IMG/VR virus record: IMGVR_UViG_3300020057_000128
Coordinates: 1 to 27,992 of that record
Strand: one strand, 5' to 3'
DNA length: 27,992 bases
Source of the DNA: a virus
The notes below the pieces were generated by a model. The model did not search any database and was not told the DNA's origin. It was given only the letters and a program-made list of their open reading frames with translations. Below are positions 1-5,301 of this stretch, piece after piece (the first letter of the stretch is position 1; every line of letters begins with the position of its first letter). The position numbers and the translations under genes are program-made.

Positions 1-561
1 CAGCTTGGCCACGTCGGCGGCGGCGGAGACGGACACCTTGCCCTGCTCGACAGCCTCGATGAGCGACGGCGCGCCTTCGGTCTTGACGACGCGAGCGGCA
101 CGGACGCTGCGTTCGCTGACGTTCAGCATCCCGGCGGCGGAAGCCTGGGTGACGGATGGGGCTTCCGTCGATGCCAAGAGCGGCAAATTTGCCGCTCTGG
201 AGCCTGCCCGCTCCCCCCATTCAAGGTTTGCGATGCGGGCCGCGACCATCGCGCGCTGGCTTTCGTCCAGGTGCCGGCGGTGGAGGTTGAGGCTGACGAC
301 ATACGAGACCAGCTCGGCGTCATCGCCCTGCCATTCGCGAAACGTGGGGTCGGCGCCGGACAGGGCGCAGGCGCGATAGCGGTTGCGGCCGTCGATGATG
401 CGGCCGTCAGCGTGGAGCACGATAGGCTCCCGCAGTCCGTTGGCCGCAATGTCATCCGCCAGCGCGCGCAGATCGCCAGCGCCGAGCAAGGGGAAGATTT
501 TTGCTACAGGGTGAAAGTCCCGCGGCGCGTCGTATTTGGCGAGCGCGGTCACGCGGGCCAT
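1..561 (-). CDS. ParB-like nuclease-domain protein (partial, C-terminus off the left edge)
   Basis: The reading frame is open for 187 codons from ATG at 561 to the window edge, with no stop, so it is partial. Residues about 15-115 look like a ParB/sulfiredoxin-type N-terminal domain. The best marker is IIDGRNRYRAC (residues 55-65), the conserved GxxRxxA(C) nucleotide-binding motif of that family, preceded by NGLREPIV. Residues about 137-160 (VTQASAAGMLNVSERSVRAA) look like a helix-turn-helix. Phage ParB-like proteins of this kind are DNA-binding regulators or accessory proteins; a partition role cannot be shown because no parA is in view. The ATG shares one base with the TGA of the YdaS-like gene upstream (TGATG), so the two are probably translationally coupled and under the same autoregulated promoter. 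Family assignment is firm; the exact role is not. Confidence 0.85.
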   Translation of the reverse strand, partial: MARVTALAKYDAPRDFHPVAKIFPLLGAGDLRALADDIAANGLREPIVLHADGRIIDGRNRYRACALSGADPTFREWQGDDAELVSYVVSLNLHRRHLDESQRAMVAARIANLEWGERAGSRAANLPLLASTEAPSVTQASAAGMLNVSERSVRAARVVKTEGAPSLIEAVEQGKVSVSAAADVAKL

Positions 562-764
562 CAGGCGGCCTCGCGCTCAATCGGATACAGGTCCGGGCGC
601 AGTTCGGATCGCGGAATGCCGGTGATCTGCTCGACGGCGTGCACGTACTCAGCGGGTACCTTGTCCCACTGCCAAACGGCGCTGGAGGTCTTGCCAATCG
701 CCCGCGCAATCTCGCTGCGGATGCCACGCGGACAATCGGTCAAACGGGTCTGCAAATCGGTCAT
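561..764 (-). CDS. YdaS/Cro-like helix-turn-helix repressor
   Basis: This 67-residue protein starts MTDLQTRLTDCPRGIRSEIA. It matches the YdaS/Cro-like pattern: a short HTH followed by VPAEYVHAVEQITGIPRSEL and a C-terminal RPDLYP. In this family the protein binds the phage early-control region and often acts as a Cro-like repressor or antitoxin-like regulator. An in-frame TTG at 800 would extend it by 12 residues, but that extension runs through the palindromic operator and the promoter, so the ATG at 764 is preferred. No Shine-Dalgarno is visible before this ATG. The predicted -10 hexamer ends only 8 bases upstream, which suggests a leaderless transcript. It is coupled to the ParB-like gene downstream. 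The likely target is the pair of identical operators at 772-790 and 863-877. Confidence 0.85.
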   Translation of the reverse strand: MTDLQTRLTDCPRGIRSEIARAIGKTSSAVWQWDKVPAEYVHAVEQITGIPRSELRPDLYPIEREAA

Positions 765-771
765 GGCTTGA

Positions 772-790
772 GTGTAAGCACGACTTACAC
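772..790. promoter_or_regulatory. Operator O1, palindrome GTGTAAG-N5-CTTACAC
   Basis: This is a perfect inverted repeat with 7-bp arms and a 5-bp spacer (GTGTAAG CACGA CTTACAC). The central 15 bp are identical, on the opposite strand, to the core of the second site at 863-877. It covers the predicted -10 and spacer of the leftward promoter directly upstream of the YdaS-like gene, so a repressor bound here would block that promoter. The YdaS-like protein is the obvious candidate for autoregulation. Confidence 0.75.
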
Positions 791-800
791 GGGGGCGCAA
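772..800 (-). promoter_or_regulatory. Predicted leftward promoter of the ydaS-like/parB-like unit
   Basis: On the minus strand TTGCGC (795-800) is followed by a 17-bp spacer and TTACAC (772-777). The rightward promoter at 851-879 has the same layout (TTGCGG, 17 bp, TTACAT), and this repetition is the main support for both. Transcription would start near 765, at or next to the ATG at 764, giving a leaderless mRNA. The -10 match to consensus is weak. Confidence 0.5.
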
Positions 801-828
801 GCCTGATTCGACGTTCGCCGAAAATAAT

Positions 829-833
829 GTAAG
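829..833. promoter_or_regulatory. Possible operator half-site GTAAG
   Basis: A lone TGTAAG half-site lies roughly midway between the two full operators, within TGTAAGCTAC. It could be a third, weaker binding site that allows co-operative looping or binding between O1 and O2. It is too short to be convincing by itself. Confidence 0.3.
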
Positions 834-850
834 CTACCCTAACTTTCCGC

Positions 851-879
851 TTGCGGCTTCGCGTAAGTCGTGCTTACAT
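851..879 (+). promoter_or_regulatory. Predicted rightward early promoter
   Basis: TTGCGG (851-856), a 17-bp spacer and TTACAT (874-879) precede the early operon. The arrangement copies the leftward promoter at 772-800, including the position of the GTAAG-N5-CTTAC operator in the spacer and -10. Transcription would start near 886, leaving a leader of about 27 bases with a GAGGGCG Shine-Dalgarno-like stretch before the ATG at 913. Confidence 0.5.
863..877. promoter_or_regulatory. Operator O2, palindrome GTAAG-N5-CTTAC
   Basis: The 15-bp core GTAAGTCGTGCTTAC is the exact reverse complement of the core of O1 (775-787), including the unsymmetrical 5-bp centre. Relative to the promoter it controls, each operator therefore reads the same way. 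It overlaps the predicted rightward -10, so binding should shut off the early recombination operon. Confidence 0.75.
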
Positions 880-912
880 TCCCATCCAGACGCACAACGC
901 AGCGAGGGCGCG

Positions 913-1131
913 ATGAACCGGACGACGAAGGCGGACATTGAAGCGGCGGGCGGCCGCCCCTCCGATGAACAGCGGGCCGATGTTTTGCCCGCGCTGGACG
1001 CCGTCTCGCGCCATCTGTACCGGGCGCTGCGCGATCTGGTCGAAGCCGCTGAGGCCGACGGCTGGGACGTTACGCCCAATGAGGCGATCCTGAACGCCAG
1101 TCGCGCCGCCCTCGCCCGTGTGTCGCCATGA
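913..1131 (+). CDS. Unknown small early protein, first gene of the rightward operon
   Basis: This 72-residue protein starts at ATG 913 (MNRTTKADIEAAGGRPSDEQ) and I recognise no family. It is mostly helical in appearance, with a charged N-terminus and an acidic central helix (RALRDLVEAAEADG). It is the first gene behind the operator-controlled promoter and its TGA overlaps the next ATG (ATGA at 1128-1131). Its position suits a small early regulator or accessory protein, but the sequence alone gives no function. Coding status is supported by the overlap pattern that runs through the whole operon. Confidence 0.7.
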   Translation: MNRTTKADIEAAGGRPSDEQRADVLPALDAVSRHLYRALRDLVEAAEADGWDVTPNEAILNASRAALARVSP

Positions 1132-1892
1132 CCGCGCTGATCGCCTACCACAACGACCCGGCCATCAAGACCAAAATTATCGCCCAGCTTGAGGCTCATC
1201 GGGCCGCCGACCAGCTGGTCAAGGGCCAGTACTGGGAAGGTGGCAAAGGGTGCGCCGTCGGCTGCACCCTTAATGGCCAAGACCATGCGGAATATGAGGT
1301 CCGGTTTGGCGTTCCCGAGATGTTGGCAAGACTGGAGGATGCGATCTTTGAGGGCCTGCCGAACGGGGACGCCATGGAGTGGCCGGTGCGGTTCATGTCA
1401 TCGATCCGTCCGGGGGCCGATCTCAGTCGCGTCGGGTGGCAGTTCCTCCACTATCTTCTGACTGACGATGCGGTGAATCCCGGCATCAATCACCCGCTTG
1501 TTCGTGACGCGATCCGTCAATGCGCCGACGTGGTTGCCGCGCCCGCCAAGGGAATTCCCATTGATAGGATCGCGGCGTGGAGCTCGTGGCGCGCGGCGGT
1601 GGGCGCGGCGGTGGGCGCGGCGGATAGCGCGGCGGATAGCGCGGCGTGGAGCTCGTGGCGCGCGGCGATGAGCGCGGCGGAAAGCGCGATGAGCGCGGCG
1701 GATAGCGCGAGGAGCGCGCGGAGCGCGGGGTGGAGCGCGGCGGTGGGCGCGGCGACCTTCGCGGTGAGCGCGGCGGGCTTCGCGGCGGAGAGCACGTGGA
1801 GCGCGGGGTGGAGCGCGACGAGGAGCGCGGCGAGGAGCGCGGCGTGGCAGCTGATGGCCGAAAAGCTCACCCGTCTGCTGGAGGCCGCATGA
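1128..1892 (+). CDS. Unknown protein with Ser-Ala-Ala-X repeat tail (duplicated gene, intact copy)
   Basis: This 254-residue protein has two parts. Residues 1-150 look globular (begins MTALIAYHNDPAIKTK, contains GKGCAVGCTLNGQDHAEYE and a PVRFMSSIRPGADLSR stretch). Residues about 150-240 are low complexity, built of short units such as DSAA, WSAA, MSAA, VGAA and RSA, followed by a normal helical end (MAEKLTRLLEAA). I do not recognise the globular part; alanine-rich repeats with regular Trp/Asp/Arg are seen in other phage proteins of unknown role. The gene overlaps its upstream neighbour by ATGA and its own stop overlaps the start of a frameshifted second copy (1889). The ends of the gene, GGAGGCC and ATGACCGCGCT, recur at each junction, so the unit looks as if it duplicated in tandem. 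Confidence 0.75.
   Translation: MTALIAYHNDPAIKTKIIAQLEAHRAADQLVKGQYWEGGKGCAVGCTLNGQDHAEYEVRFGVPEMLARLEDAIFEGLPNGDAMEWPVRFMSSIRPGADLSRVGWQFLHYLLTDDAVNPGINHPLVRDAIRQCADVVAAPAKGIPIDRIAAWSSWRAAVGAAVGAADSAADSAAWSSWRAAMSAAESAMSAADSARSARSAGWSAAVGAATFAVSAAGFAAESTWSAGWSATRSAARSAAWQLMAEKLTRLLEAA
1570..1850 (+). repeat. Low-complexity repeat, units of about 12 bp (copy 1)
   Basis: Short direct repeats of the kind GCGGATAGCGCG and GCGTGGAGCGCG encode Ser-Ala-Ala-X units in the frame of the 1128-1892 gene. The array is irregular here, with 9-, 12- and 15-bp units. The absence of stops opens long false reading frames on both strands. Confidence 0.8.
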
Positions 1893-2610
1893 CCGCGCTG
1901 ATCGCCTACCACAACGACCCGGTCATCAGACCAAAATTATCGCCCAGCTTGAGGCTCATCGCGCTGCCGACCAGCTGGTCAAGGGCCAGTACTGGGAAGG
2001 TGGCAAAGGCTGCGCCGTCGGCTGCACCCTTCATGGCCAAGACCATGCCGAATACGAGGTCCGGTTTGGCATTCCCGAGATGTTGGCAAGACTGGAGGAT
2101 GCGATCTTTGAGGGCCTGCCGAACGGGGACGCCATGGAGTGGCCGGTACGGTTCATGTCGGCGATCCGTCCGGGGGCCGATCTCAGTCGCGTCTGGTGGC
2201 AGTTCCTCCACTGGTTGCTGACTGACGCTGTGGTGAATCCCGGCATCAATCACCCACTTGTTCGTGACGCGATCCGTCAATGCGCCGACGTGGTTGCCGC
2301 GCCCGCCAAGGGAATTCCCATTGATAGGATCGCGGCGGATAGCGCGTGGCGCGCGGCGGATAGCGCGGCGGATAGCGCGGCGGATAGCGCGGCGTGGAGC
2401 GCGTCGTGGAGCGCGTCGTGGAGCGTGGCGTGGAGCGCGTCGTGGAGCGCGTCGTGGATCGCGGCGGGGAGCGCGGCGAGGAGCGCGGCGGAGAGCGCGG
2501 CGGAGAGCGCGGCGTGGAGCGCGGCGTGGGGCGCGGCGAGGAGCGCGGCGAGGAGCGCGGCGTGGCAGATGATGGCCGAAAAACTCACCCGTCTGCTGGA
2601 GGCCACATGA
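1889..2610 (+). pseudogene. Second copy of the SAAX-repeat gene, disrupted by a 1-bp deletion
   Basis: This copy follows the first head to tail. Over the first 440 bp or so the two differ at only about twenty positions. The first 13 codons keep the frame (MTALIAYHNDPVI), then one A is missing near 1928 (ATCAGACC against ATCAAGACC), and a ribosome starting at 1889 would stop at 2221. Beyond the deletion the original frame stays open to the TGA at 2608-2610, so a shorter product could start at ATG 2080 (176 residues, MLARLEDAIFEGL). Many of the differences between copies are synonymous in the original frame (for example GAATAT/GAATAC and GGGTGC/GGCTGC), so the frame was kept for most of the time since duplication. 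Either a recent mutation, a sequencing error, or a frameshifted expression signal could explain it. Confidence 0.8.
2336..2572 (+). repeat. Regular 12-bp repeat coding X-Ser-Ala-Ala (copy 2)
   Basis: Around nineteen consecutive 12-bp units encode tetrapeptides such as DSAA, WSAS, GSAA, RSAA and ESAA in the frame of the disrupted second gene copy. The units are far more regular than in the first copy, which points to expansion or homogenisation by replication slippage or recombination after the duplication. Confidence 0.8.
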
Positions 2611-2975
2611 CCGCGCTCATCTTTGCCTTCACCCACCACGACACGCTGGACGCGGGCGGCCGGACCTTCACCCTGGCCGACTACGAGTGCGAGGGCGAGT
2701 TCGACGTGACCACGGACGGCCCCGACGGCGAGGACTGGACGCTGAGCGGCCTCTGGGTGAGCGGCGTGCGCCTGACAGGTCAGGGGAAAGTGATGACCGC
2801 CCAGCTCGTTCTGACGCCAGCGCATCCGCTCTACGAGGCGATCAAGGCGACCGCCGAGGCCAAGGTGCTCGACGAGGTGGGCGCCGCCATCGCGCGCGGC
2901 GACATTGGCCCGGCGGCGGATCGCGATACGGCGGACGAGGCGCGGTACGAGCGCGAGCGGGAGGGCGTGGAATGA
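2607..2975 (+). CDS. Unknown early protein
   Basis: This 122-residue protein starts at ATG 2607, overlapping the stop of the duplicated gene (ATGA). The start is chosen for this overlap; the open frame extends upstream only through the stop-free repeat. Residues 15-75 (ADYECEGEFDVTT, WTLSGLWVSGVRLTGQGK) look like a small beta-rich domain, and the C-terminal third is a charged helix ending EARYEREREGVE. Its first five residues (MTALI) and the preceding GGAGGCC are the same as in the two duplicated genes, although the rest is unrelated. I recognise no family. Its place before the recombination genes suggests an accessory early role. Confidence 0.7.
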   Translation: MTALIFAFTHHDTLDAGGRTFTLADYECEGEFDVTTDGPDGEDWTLSGLWVSGVRLTGQGKVMTAQLVLTPAHPLYEAIKATAEAKVLDEVGAAIARGDIGPAADRDTADEARYEREREGVE

Positions 2976-3139
2976 ACGCCGAAACACCCCGCCCGCTGAC
3001 GCCCGCCGATGCTGTGGCCCTCGCATTCGACGAATGCACCGTCGAGATCGACGCGGCACAGGCCCGGCTCATGGACGCCTATCTCGACGCCTCGAACCGG
3101 GCGCTGGCGAGCGCGCTGAAACTGGAGGAGAAGCTGTGA
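2972..3139 (+). CDS. Unknown small helical early protein
   Basis: This 55-residue protein starts at ATG 2972 (MNAETPRPLTPADAVALAFD) and is probably one or two helices: an acidic stretch CTVEIDAAQARLMDAYLD and a basic end ALKLEEKL. It overlaps the previous gene by ATGA and the next by GTGA. No family is recognised. The coding call rests mainly on the unbroken chain of start/stop overlaps. Confidence 0.6.
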   Translation: MNAETPRPLTPADAVALAFDECTVEIDAAQARLMDAYLDASNRALASALKLEEKL

Positions 3140-3357
3140 GCGAGATCAAGGTTGAGCGAAACCTCCCCCTGGCGGATCAAATGATCAACGCCCCGACCCC
3201 CCCGACCAGCCCCGCCGAGTGCGAGGGCGCGTGGCGCGTCCGAATGGACGTGGCCGACGAATGCCACGCGAAGGGCGACTACGCCGCTGCCGCGCACCAC
3301 TGGCGCAAGGCGGACGAGATCGCCACCCGGCGCGATGAATTGGTGGGCGCGGGATGA
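3136..3357 (+). CDS. Unknown small protein with a TPR-like helical pair
   Basis: This 73-residue protein begins with GTG at 3136 (SEIKVERNLPLADQM), inside the stop of the previous gene. The second half (DECHAKGDYAAAAHHWRKAD) has the spacing of a single tetratricopeptide-like helical hairpin, with a small residue and aromatic/hydrophobic positions in the expected places. One such unit is not enough to call a TPR protein. Its stop overlaps the ATG of the YqaJ-type exonuclease (ATGA), so it is probably made together with it. Confidence 0.6.
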   Translation: MSEIKVERNLPLADQMINAPTPPTSPAECEGAWRVRMDVADECHAKGDYAAAAHHWRKADEIATRRDELVGAG

Positions 3358-4274
3358 CCGAGCGCATCCCCGCCACCGACCGCGCGGCCTGGCTCGCGCT
3401 CCGAAAGCGCGACATCACCGCATCCGACATCGCTGCCCTGTTCGGCCAGCATCCCTATCGGACGCGCTTTCAGGTCTACGCCGAGAAGACCGGCGCCAGC
3501 GACGGCATCGGAGACAACCCGGCCATGCGCCGGGGCCGCATCCTGGAGCCGGCCGTCGCCGAGGCGTGGTTCGAAGAACGCGGCGAGCGGCTGACGAAGT
3601 GCGCCGACTACGTGCGCGATCCGGCGCACCGCCTTGGCGCGACGCCCGACTACACCCGCCCGAACGGCGAGCCGGTCGAATGCAAGACCGTCGCGCCTGA
3701 AAAGTGGGAAGAATGGCGGGAGGCCGCGCCCTTGGCGTACCAGCTTCAGGCGCTTGTGCAGGCGATGTTGCTGGACGCGCCCCGCGCGTGGCTGGCCGTC
3801 CTGGTTGACAACCGGGCGAAGGATTTCCGCGTCTTTGAGGTGCCGCGCCATCCGAGCGCCGAGGCCAGGGTCATCGCCGCCGCTGCCGATTTCTGGCGCG
3901 CCGTCGCCGCCGGCGAGGTGCCCGCCGCCGACTACACGCGCGACGGGGACGCCATCGCAGCGATGTTTCCTCGCGACAGCGGCGAAGTTCTGGACCTCAG
4001 CGCCGACAACCGCCTGCACGAATTGCTCGCGAGGCGCGCCGACATCAAGGCCAGCCTCACCACCGCCGAGAAAGAAGCCGACGCGATTGACGCCGAGATC
4101 AAGGCGAAGATCGGCGAGGCTAGCGAGGCGACACTGCCGGGCTGGCGCGTCACCTACAAGGCGCAGACGAGGCCCGAACGGCTCATGGCCGCCTCGACGT
4201 TCAGAGTCCTCCGCGTCACCGACACAAGCAAACCAAAAAGCCGGAAGGCCGCACAGAAGGAAGAAGCAGCATGA
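3354..4274 (+). CDS. YqaJ-type viral recombinase exonuclease
   Basis: This 306-residue protein belongs to the YqaJ/lambda-exonuclease family, which degrades one strand of double-stranded DNA to expose single strands for annealing. Visible family motifs are ITASDIAALFG (residues 21-31), an acidic Glu in GRILEP (Glu65), GATPDY with Asp99, ECKT with Glu109 and Lys111 (the D...ExK nuclease core), and AYQLQ (residues 128-132). After residue about 215 it continues as a charged coiled-coil-like segment and a basic tail. It is followed with ATGA overlap by a RecT-like annealing protein, the normal partner in phage two-component recombination systems. Together they probably serve replication, repair or circularisation of the phage genome. 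Confidence 0.93.
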   Translation: MTERIPATDRAAWLALRKRDITASDIAALFGQHPYRTRFQVYAEKTGASDGIGDNPAMRRGRILEPAVAEAWFEERGERLTKCADYVRDPAHRLGATPDYTRPNGEPVECKTVAPEKWEEWREAAPLAYQLQALVQAMLLDAPRAWLAVLVDNRAKDFRVFEVPRHPSAEARVIAAAADFWRAVAAGEVPAADYTRDGDAIAAMFPRDSGEVLDLSADNRLHELLARRADIKASLTTAEKEADAIDAEIKAKIGEASEATLPGWRVTYKAQTRPERLMAASTFRVLRVTDTSKPKSRKAAQKEEAA

Positions 4275-5197
4275 CCGCCATCGCGCTACGCCCCGTCAAC
4301 GTCAACGACACCGCCACGCTCACCGCATCGGGCGGCGACATGATGAGCGACACCGCGCTGTTCGAACTCGCGCAGCGCTGGGCGACCGCATTCTCCAAGT
4401 CGCAACTCGTTCCCGCGCATCTTCGCGACAAGCCCGCCGACTGCCTTATCGGCATTCTCATGGCGCGACAGCTTCGCGTGAACCCGCTGCTAGTCTTGCA
4501 GAACATCTACATCGTCAGCGGCAAGGCCGGATGGGCGGCGAACTTCATGATCGCTTGCGCCAATTCCAGTGGGGTTCTGAAAGGCCGGATCACATGGGAG
4601 ACGCGCGGCTCCGGGCGCGACATGGAAGTGATGGCGAAAGCGACGACCGCCGACACCGGCGACCTCATCACCGCGACCGTTTCCATGCAGATGGCGCACG
4701 CGGAAGGCTGGACGAACAACAAGAAGTACCAAACGATGCCCGAGCACATGCTGCGCTGGCGCTCGGCGACGATGCTCATTCGCCTCTACTGCCCCGAGGT
4801 GTTGATGGGGATGCAGACGGCGGACGAGATCGAGGACACGCCGCGCGCCGAGACGAAGCAGATCATCCATTCGCTCGACGCCTTCGCCGGGGAAGATGCA
4901 GCAACCGAGGTCGAGACGGGCGCGGCCGCCGACGTCACCGAAGACGCCGCCGATTCCCAGGACGTGCCCGCGATCCCGCCCTCGCAGATGGCCTACGTCG
5001 AAGAAGTGGCGCGCCGGTTCGAGTCCTGCGGCGACGACGGCGCGCTCGACGATCTGCTGGCGACGGCGATGGAGAACGCGAAGGGAGACGGTGCGACCGA
5101 CGAGGTTGTCGCCGCGATTGTCGAACTGGCGAAAACCCAGCGCCTCCGCATCCAGCAGGCTGCGGCGAAGGCCGCGAAGCCGACGCGGAAGCAGTAG
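4271..5197 (+). CDS. recT: RecT-family single-strand annealing protein
   Basis: This 308-residue protein follows the exonuclease with a 4-bp overlap. The core up to about residue 190 shows the RecT pattern: an N-terminal helical part, CLIGILMARQLRVNPLLVLQ, the YIVSGKAGWAANFMIA strand region, and further on MLRWRSATMLIRLYCPEVLM with the ADEIED ending. RecT proteins bind the single strands made by the partner exonuclease and anneal them to complementary DNA. Residues about 200-230 form an acidic, Ala-rich linker, and the last 70 residues make a helical, finally basic tail (AAKAAKPTRKQ) that may help recruit host single-strand binding protein or DNA. It is the last protein gene of the rightward operon. 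Confidence 0.92.
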   Translation: MTAIALRPVNVNDTATLTASGGDMMSDTALFELAQRWATAFSKSQLVPAHLRDKPADCLIGILMARQLRVNPLLVLQNIYIVSGKAGWAANFMIACANSSGVLKGRITWETRGSGRDMEVMAKATTADTGDLITATVSMQMAHAEGWTNNKKYQTMPEHMLRWRSATMLIRLYCPEVLMGMQTADEIEDTPRAETKQIIHSLDAFAGEDAATEVETGAAADVTEDAADSQDVPAIPPSQMAYVEEVARRFESCGDDGALDDLLATAMENAKGDGATDEVVAAIVELAKTQRLRIQQAAAKAAKPTRKQ

Positions 5198-5222
5198 CCG
5201 TGCCGGACAACGCCGCCACCGC

Positions 5223-5236
5223 CTACCCGCGGGTAG
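5223..5236. repeat. Perfect 14-bp palindrome CTACCCG/CGGGTAG at the tRNA 5' end
   Basis: The palindrome CTACCCGCGGGTAG covers the 5' acceptor bases of the tRNA and the four bases before it. It replaces the bases needed to pair with the tRNA 3' end. It could be a protein-binding or recombination site, or simply the result of the change that broke the acceptor stem. Confidence 0.6.
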
Positions 5237-5301
5237 CTCAGGGGTAGAGCGCGGCGTTCACATCGCCGATGTCGGGGGTTCGATACCCTCCCCGCCCACC
5301 A
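5227..5301 (+). tRNA. tRNA-Val (anticodon CAC), with mismatched acceptor end
   Basis: A complete cloverleaf can be drawn: D stem GCTC/GAGC (5236-5250), anticodon stem CGGCG/CGCCG with loop TTCACAT (5252-5268, anticodon CAC at 5259-5261), five-base variable loop, T stem GGGGG/CCCTC with loop TTCGATA (5274-5290), discriminator A and encoded CCA (5298-5301). The acceptor stem is unusual: the 3' side is CCCGCCC (5291-5297), which calls for GGGCGGG at the 5' side, but the sequence reads CCGCGGG. Positions 1 and 2 would therefore be C-C mismatches. The altered 5' end is part of a 14-bp palindrome. It could be a functional phage tRNA, a decayed one, or an attachment-site copy of a host tRNA gene. 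Confidence 0.8.

Follow-up and report, generated by a model that had tools for sequence, protein, structure and literature searches.

A predicted Cro-controlled early region with back-to-back promoters in a lambdoid-type phage fragment

Here we describe a promoter-operator region in a viral sequence of 27,992 nt (this whole stretch is hereafter the window) that is best explained, and probably so, as the region controlling early genes in a lambdoid-type phage in which a Cro-type protein would shut PR and PL promoters placed back to back, with cI absent. The leftward unit would act as PR/OR and drive the Cro-type gene, with transcription beginning at the AUG or directly beside it; the Cro mRNA would be read without a leader, and the coupled ParB-like gene would be transcribed next. 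The rightward unit would act as PL/OL and drive an early operon containing RecE-like and RecT-like genes. A Cro dimer would read GTAAG-N5-CTTAC over the -10 region of both promoters and, on accumulating, would silence its own promoter along with the recombination operon; cI, which in related phages lies between PL and PR, would be missing, leaving the promoters within 90 bp. Binding, repression, the transcription starts and the loss of cI from the whole phage are what we infer here, and gene order suggests that a single protein would shut both the ParB-like gene and the recombination operon.

Features of the window that bear on the proposed control region, with the basis of each assignment
Feature	Position	Strand	Basis or remark
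Source record	IMG/VR IMGVR_UViG_3300020057_000128		27,992 bases, linear, perhaps a fragment; ends within the ParB-like gene
ParB-like gene, cut by window edge	1..561	-	ATG overlaps the Cro-gene stop (TGATG)
Cro-type repressor gene, YdaS/P22-Cro family, 67 aa	561..764	-	Pfam, PHROG and PDB profile matches
Leftward unit	772-800	-	TTGCGn-17-TTACAn with GTAAG-TCGTG-CTTAC site
-10-like element TTACAC, leftward promoter	777-772	-	sequence; 7 nt before ATG 764-762
Putative operator O1 (PR/OR type)	774-788	-	ends 9 nt before the ATG
-35-like element TTGCGC, leftward promoter	800-795	-	TTG at exactly this offset in 38/49 relatives including the window
Putative weaker third operator GTAAGCTACCCTAAC (OL2-like)	829-843	+	1 mismatch; 34 nt from the 863-877 site
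Rightward unit	851-879	+	TTGCGn-17-TTACAn with GTAAG-TCGTG-CTTAC site
-35-like element TTGCGG, rightward promoter	851-856	+	sequence
Putative operator (PL/OL1 type)	863-877	+	L018 and L010 carry this 15-mer in a PL-like unit
-10-like element TTACAT, rightward promoter	874-879	+	predicted start near 886; leader of ~27 nt with Shine-Dalgarno
First gene of rightward operon, 72 aa	913..1131	+	no family match in Pfam and phrog searches
YqaJ/RecE-like exonuclease	3354..4274	+	Pfam and phrog matches
RecT-like annealing protein	4271..5197	+	Pfam and phrog matches

Direct reading of the sequence bore out the two matching, outward-facing units reported in the first-pass annotation: GTAAGTCGTGCTTAC is present in both when each is read in its direction of transcription (788-774 on the minus strand, 863-877 on the plus strand), the -35-like and -10-like hexamers are 17 nt apart in both, and the arms 770-802 and 849-881 are 85% complementary over 33 nt. 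Exact GTAAG-N5-CTTAC occurs twice in the window and in none of 200 first-order Markov simulations. The annotation's count of two operators needs extending to three, as it missed the weaker site, one arm of which is broken. Inverted 13-mer seeds 20-150 nt apart, a cruder and weaker test, number four in the window and were also seen in 16 of 100 simulations; we therefore base the argument on the motif and on the relatives. The -10 hexamers are poor in both units, and a one-base shift of the leftward one, to TACACT, may be an alternative. A sigma-70 scan of positions 1-3000 with the E. coli consensus found no promoter-like site. An enterobacterial host is improbable, so this was not counted against the promoters, and the promoter call thus rests on comparison rather than on that consensus.

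The 67-aa protein scored 44.5 bits against Pfam YdaS_toxin (PF15943, cut-off 30), which places it in that family, and 22.1 bits against P22_Cro (PF14549), below the cut-off of 30.2. It also matched phrog_35, a transcriptional repressor, and the PDB profiles of Cro from Xfaso1 (3bd1) and of P22 Cro (1rzs); judged by these matches, the product called YdaS-like in the first-pass annotation is a predicted Cro of the YdaS/P22-Cro/Xfaso1 kind. Its neighbour is not ydaT, which does not lie downstream, but the ParB-like gene, with a weak match to Pfam ParB_N (0.011) and stronger ones to phrog_21315 (4.4e-28) and other ParB-like phrogs. None of seven loci with relatives of the ParB-like gene had a Cro/YdaS homologue, which leaves the window's ParB-Cro pair without a second example, and AAG-N5-CTT was absent beside the ParB-like gene in the seven except for one lone site in L199. 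A search for viral relatives of the 72-aa ORF found none.

Downstream on the plus strand, positions 1128-2610 hold two near-identical adjacent genes whose products have long tails of Ala/Ser/Trp repeats; proteins rich in repeats likewise occur in L198, close to its ParB-like gene, and in L132, within the early operon. A tRNA-Val (cac) gene at 5227-5301 (+) separates the RecT-like gene from the opposing late operon, and the remaining genes are late ones (portal, head, tail tape measure, terminase). When positions 1-5300 were compared as DNA with phage records, only the RecT and tRNA-Val pieces matched. No cI-type gene was found among the 369 ORFs of the window with a profile built from the relatives, and HTH_3 matched none of them. 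The window record, itself incomplete, had no match to the integrase family PF00589, which was found in three of the seven records searched, the window's being one of the seven.

Relatives of the Cro-type protein were fetched by protein sequence alone, and the upstream regions of 157 distinct loci were inspected after removal of duplicates with identical 90 nt upstream and of loci with <200 nt upstream; neither the window nor loci fetched by the operator itself enter these 157-locus site counts. Exact GTAAG-N5-CTTAC stood upstream in 11 of the 157, compared with 0 of 1512 control windows from the same loci, and with ≤1 mismatch allowed the counts were 37/157 and 2/1512. A motif-free test of 64 three-base cores at 11 spacings placed AAG-N5-CTT at the top, with 62 of 157 loci against a mean of 4.1 for spacing 5; the same site occurred in 35 of 1512 control windows and was absent in 95 of the 157 relatives. 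Starting from DNA instead, pattern searches from the window led back to Cro/YdaS genes in L018, L021, L029, L030 and L032, the last four of which share with the window the unit TTG-N9-GTAAG-N5-CTTACA-N8-ATG; many other pattern matches lacked a Cro/YdaS gene and seem to be chance occurrences. Very probably the palindrome is an operator of the YdaS-like protein, a prediction in which the upstream sites of the relatives and the helix covariation described below support the user of the palindrome named in the first-pass annotation. The Pseudomonas phage relatives L209 and L211 carry ACAACC/GGTTGT palindromes in place of AAG-N5-CTT, so the rule does not cover the whole family. In the rhizobial phages PBC5 and RHph_I1_23 (L206, L207), repeated TTGACTGAA-like motifs precede the Cro-type genes, and no palindrome was seen there.

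Site, promoter and start codon are held at fixed distances. Among 117 protein-fetched non-fusion relatives, 45 bear a site, which in 39 of them ends 7-11 nt before an in-frame ATG. Counted likewise without the window and the operator-fetched loci, and with ORFs >250 aa omitted from the phage-like figures, a strong Shine-Dalgarno sequence preceded just 1 of these 39 starts, compared with 53 of 95 first-ATG long ORFs of the site-bearing loci; enzyme fusions with a site at the same 7-11 nt distance had one in five of five. In the window, ATG 764 has no Shine-Dalgarno (duplex energy -1.7), and ATG 913 has one (-7.0). The fixed distance to the ATG, together with the single strong Shine-Dalgarno among 39, makes it likely that the Cro mRNA is leaderless, its start being predicted from the position of the promoter, and the suggestion in the first-pass annotation of a leaderless YdaS-like mRNA without a ribosome site thereby becomes probable. 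In a set of 49 that includes the window and operator-fetched loci, TTG precedes the site by exactly 12 nt in 38, which puts the -35 element, the site and the AUG in a constant register. The 5-bp centre ends in TG in 28 of the 49 and begins with CA in only 2, confirming that the unsymmetrical centre keeps one orientation, as had been noticed for the window. We take this TG to be the TGn of an extended -10 element, which fits its position and would explain the fixed orientation of the operator.

The outer two arm bases vary among the relatives (GT, GA, TA or TC), and the protein column with the highest covariation with them is the one homologous to Ser27/28 of the window protein, at the start of the recognition helix. 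None of 1000 permutations reached this value in a set of 35 representatives of <70% identity, in which phylogeny was dealt with by thinning only and the window and operator-fetched loci were included. Serine occupies the position in most GT-class proteins, the window's among them, alanine, methionine or proline in the TA class, and lysine in one TC-class protein; L172 and the L171 group are exceptions. A cI protein reading these same operators could covary too. A published code reportedly links lambda-type Cro helices with their half-sites.

The arrangement of sites in relatives guided our reading of the two units. In 112 of the 164 loci with at least 600 nt upstream, the Cro gene is faced by a divergent cI-like gene, and the second operator pair of related phages stands beyond cI. 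When 11 related records were searched whole, sites with ≤1 mismatch lay mainly in two clusters, one at the Cro gene and one 0.7-4 kb away, the latter being a pair spaced 34 or 36 nt in eight records (G001, G002, G003, G004, G006, G007, G008 and G011) and a single site in two (G005, G010). None was credited in G009, whose exact site at 59597 falls in the late region and was taken for chance. At the fetched loci, with ORFs >250 aa omitted, the remote pairs were 30-36 nt apart in GT/GA-class phages and mostly 21-25 nt in the TA/TC class. YqaJ occurred in three of the 11 records (G002, G003, G008), always downstream of the remote pair and in the same direction, and RecT in two of these three; in the window, the sites at 829 and 863 are likewise separated by 34 nt and stand ahead of the RecE/RecT-type operon. 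From the spacing of the paired clusters, the order of YqaJ and RecT and the divergent cI of the relatives, we read 772-879 as lambda-like PR/OR and PL/OL regions lying back to back, with the cI interval absent from the window. Two marks of a lambdoid immunity region are present, a cro-type gene with operators over its promoter and a second operator region at an early recombination operon; a divergent cI between OR and OL was not found within the window fragment.

Two exact sites 75-105 nt apart occurred in six other records among all viral contigs; none of the six has a Cro or cI homologue, and some amount to simple repeats. No second viral record with exact sites in the back-to-back layout was therefore found. 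Four site-bearing non-fusion loci have no adjacent cI match, namely the window, L132, L138 and L192; in our reading the first residues of one ORF in L192 may resemble the start of a repressor. In L132, a 62.3-kb record, the Cro gene faces a non-cI early operon with a repeat-rich protein (DUF7666), the 32.3 kb read held no separate cI, the sole and weak match being the Cro ORF, and the record held no integrase; L132 is the only looser parallel to the window layout. The cI-less back-to-back layout was not found in the literature searched and looks new.

Tentatively, 772-879 may be a natural cI-less, Cro-only region in which a leaderless autorepressor sets its own level, with a ParB-like partner, and that of early recombination, in the manner of lambda-dv rather than as a lysis-lysogeny switch. 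It is also conceivable, though again short of an even chance, that this is an ordinary lambdoid switch of the CP-933P kind: the main operator user would be a repressor of CI type whose gene belongs to the part of the genome missing here, and the Cro-type protein would serve as lytic repressor. Since the window is a linear fragment that breaks off at the ParB-like gene, both cI and integrase may be located elsewhere in the genome; the divergent cI-like gene of the 112 related loci agrees with such a switch, as does the sharing of operator regions by the CI and Cro analogues of CP-933P (PMC8630535). However, the cI of relatives directly adjoins OR, a place taken in the window by the 72-aa ORF without a family match, and L132 likewise shows a Cro gene opposite an early operon without cI, with neither a separate cI in the 32.3 kb nor an integrase. 

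The proposal of the first-pass annotation that makes the Cro-type protein the sole repressor for lysogeny or maintenance appears unlikely to us: it is the only regulator found in the window and its gene is coupled to the ParB-like gene, but all annotated phage relatives with enough flanking sequence have it in the cro position beside a CI or other repressor gene, and CP-933P YdaS behaves as a Cro (PMC8630535). What survives of that proposal is a protein with a probable autoregulatory operator, by comparison with relatives; the lysogeny role gives way to the position of a Cro. The Pfam name, Bacterial toxin YdaS, would suggest an autoregulated pair of toxin-antitoxin type, and overexpressed Rac YdaS is described as slowing growth (PMC5700373). 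With a ParB-like neighbour and no YdaT, and with YdaS and YdaT argued in PMC8630535 not to form such a pair, we rejected this very improbable module. Scarcely credible, finally, is an inverted pair arising by chance or as a structural repeat (hairpin, origin or recombination site) without operator function: the seeds do arise in the simulations at the rate given above, but the motif, its offset and its context recur at the Cro genes of many phages, and we rejected both a hairpin and pure chance on that ground.

Comparison with known systems places the favoured reading, a Cro-type protein shutting adjacent PR and PL promoters. In lambda and lambda-dv, Cro shuts both PL (recombination genes) and PR (its own gene); lambda carries rexAB-cI between the two, where the window has 90 bp, and lambda-dv is an autorepressed plasmid. 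If cI is truly absent, the window would be a natural example of a Cro-only circuit, a type that in lambda has been met chiefly as laboratory derivatives. P22 Cro and Xfaso1 Cro are profile relatives of the window protein, but P22-type operators have a 4-bp centre (AAG-N4-CTT), whereas the arms in the window are 5 bp apart, and the window Cro gene is not adjacent to cI. Prophage L018 has the identical 15-mer in a PL-like unit, a second site at 36 nt and a Cro promoter with TTGCG; unlike the window, it has cI between its two operator regions. In CP-933P of E. coli O157:H7, YdaS is analogous to Cro: it occupies the opposite promoter first and, as its level rises, its own (PMC8630535). The ydaS/paaR2 region of CP-933P resembles the layout proposed for the window in having YdaS in the cro position, control of the PL analogue and a leaderless regulator mRNA, and differs in that the leaderless mRNA is that of the cI analogue paaR2, which is present, and that the operators are 18-bp repeats of another sequence (PMC8630535). 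PY54 makes leaderless cI and cro mRNAs, the latter mapped by RACE and of the kind predicted for the window; PY54 Cro, however, recognizes OR3 as its one site and leaves its own promoter unbound, cI is present and the operator is another (PMC4488713). A Cro-like YdaS and a leaderless cro are thus already in print (PMC8630535, PMC4488713).

The AAG-N5-CTT operator rule and its register with the AUG were not found in the literature searched and look new. They offer a readable rule for a very large and poorly studied group of phage repressors: an operator xxAAG-N5-CTTxx that overlies the -10 region at a set distance of 7-11 nt from the AUG, and a recognition-helix residue that varies along with the outer bases. 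With it, immunity regions become readable from sequence and immunity groups predictable, in phages mostly of Alphaproteobacteria.

The Cro/YdaS domain also occurs fused to enzymes. At 26 loci it forms the in-frame N-terminus of pyruvate phosphate dikinase (PPDK), as Pfam confirmed for L061:2962-5853 (+); the other 25 are L041, L048-L051, L053, L058-L060, L062, L067, L069-L071, L074, L076, L078, L080-L082, L092, L098, L099, L106 and L116. At least one xxAAG-N5-CTTxx site lies within 200 nt upstream in 16 of the 26, and none of the 26 has an adjacent cI match, so the site follows the domain outside phages; perhaps the fusion is an enzyme that regulates its own gene. A literature search found no paper joining YdaS with pyruvate phosphate dikinase, nor PPDK with helix-turn-helix and Rhodospirillales. 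Eleven further fusions, in Bosea and other Hyphomicrobiales (L040, L042-L047, L054, L063, L107, L108; Pfam run on L040 only), place a Cro-type domain N-terminal to a nitrate-reductase-delta-like (TorD-type chaperone) domain, with a site in one of the 11. In Roseomonas acroporae (L112:2965-4611, +), a weak YdaS/P22-Cro-like stretch, below both cut-offs, precedes pyruvate kinase.
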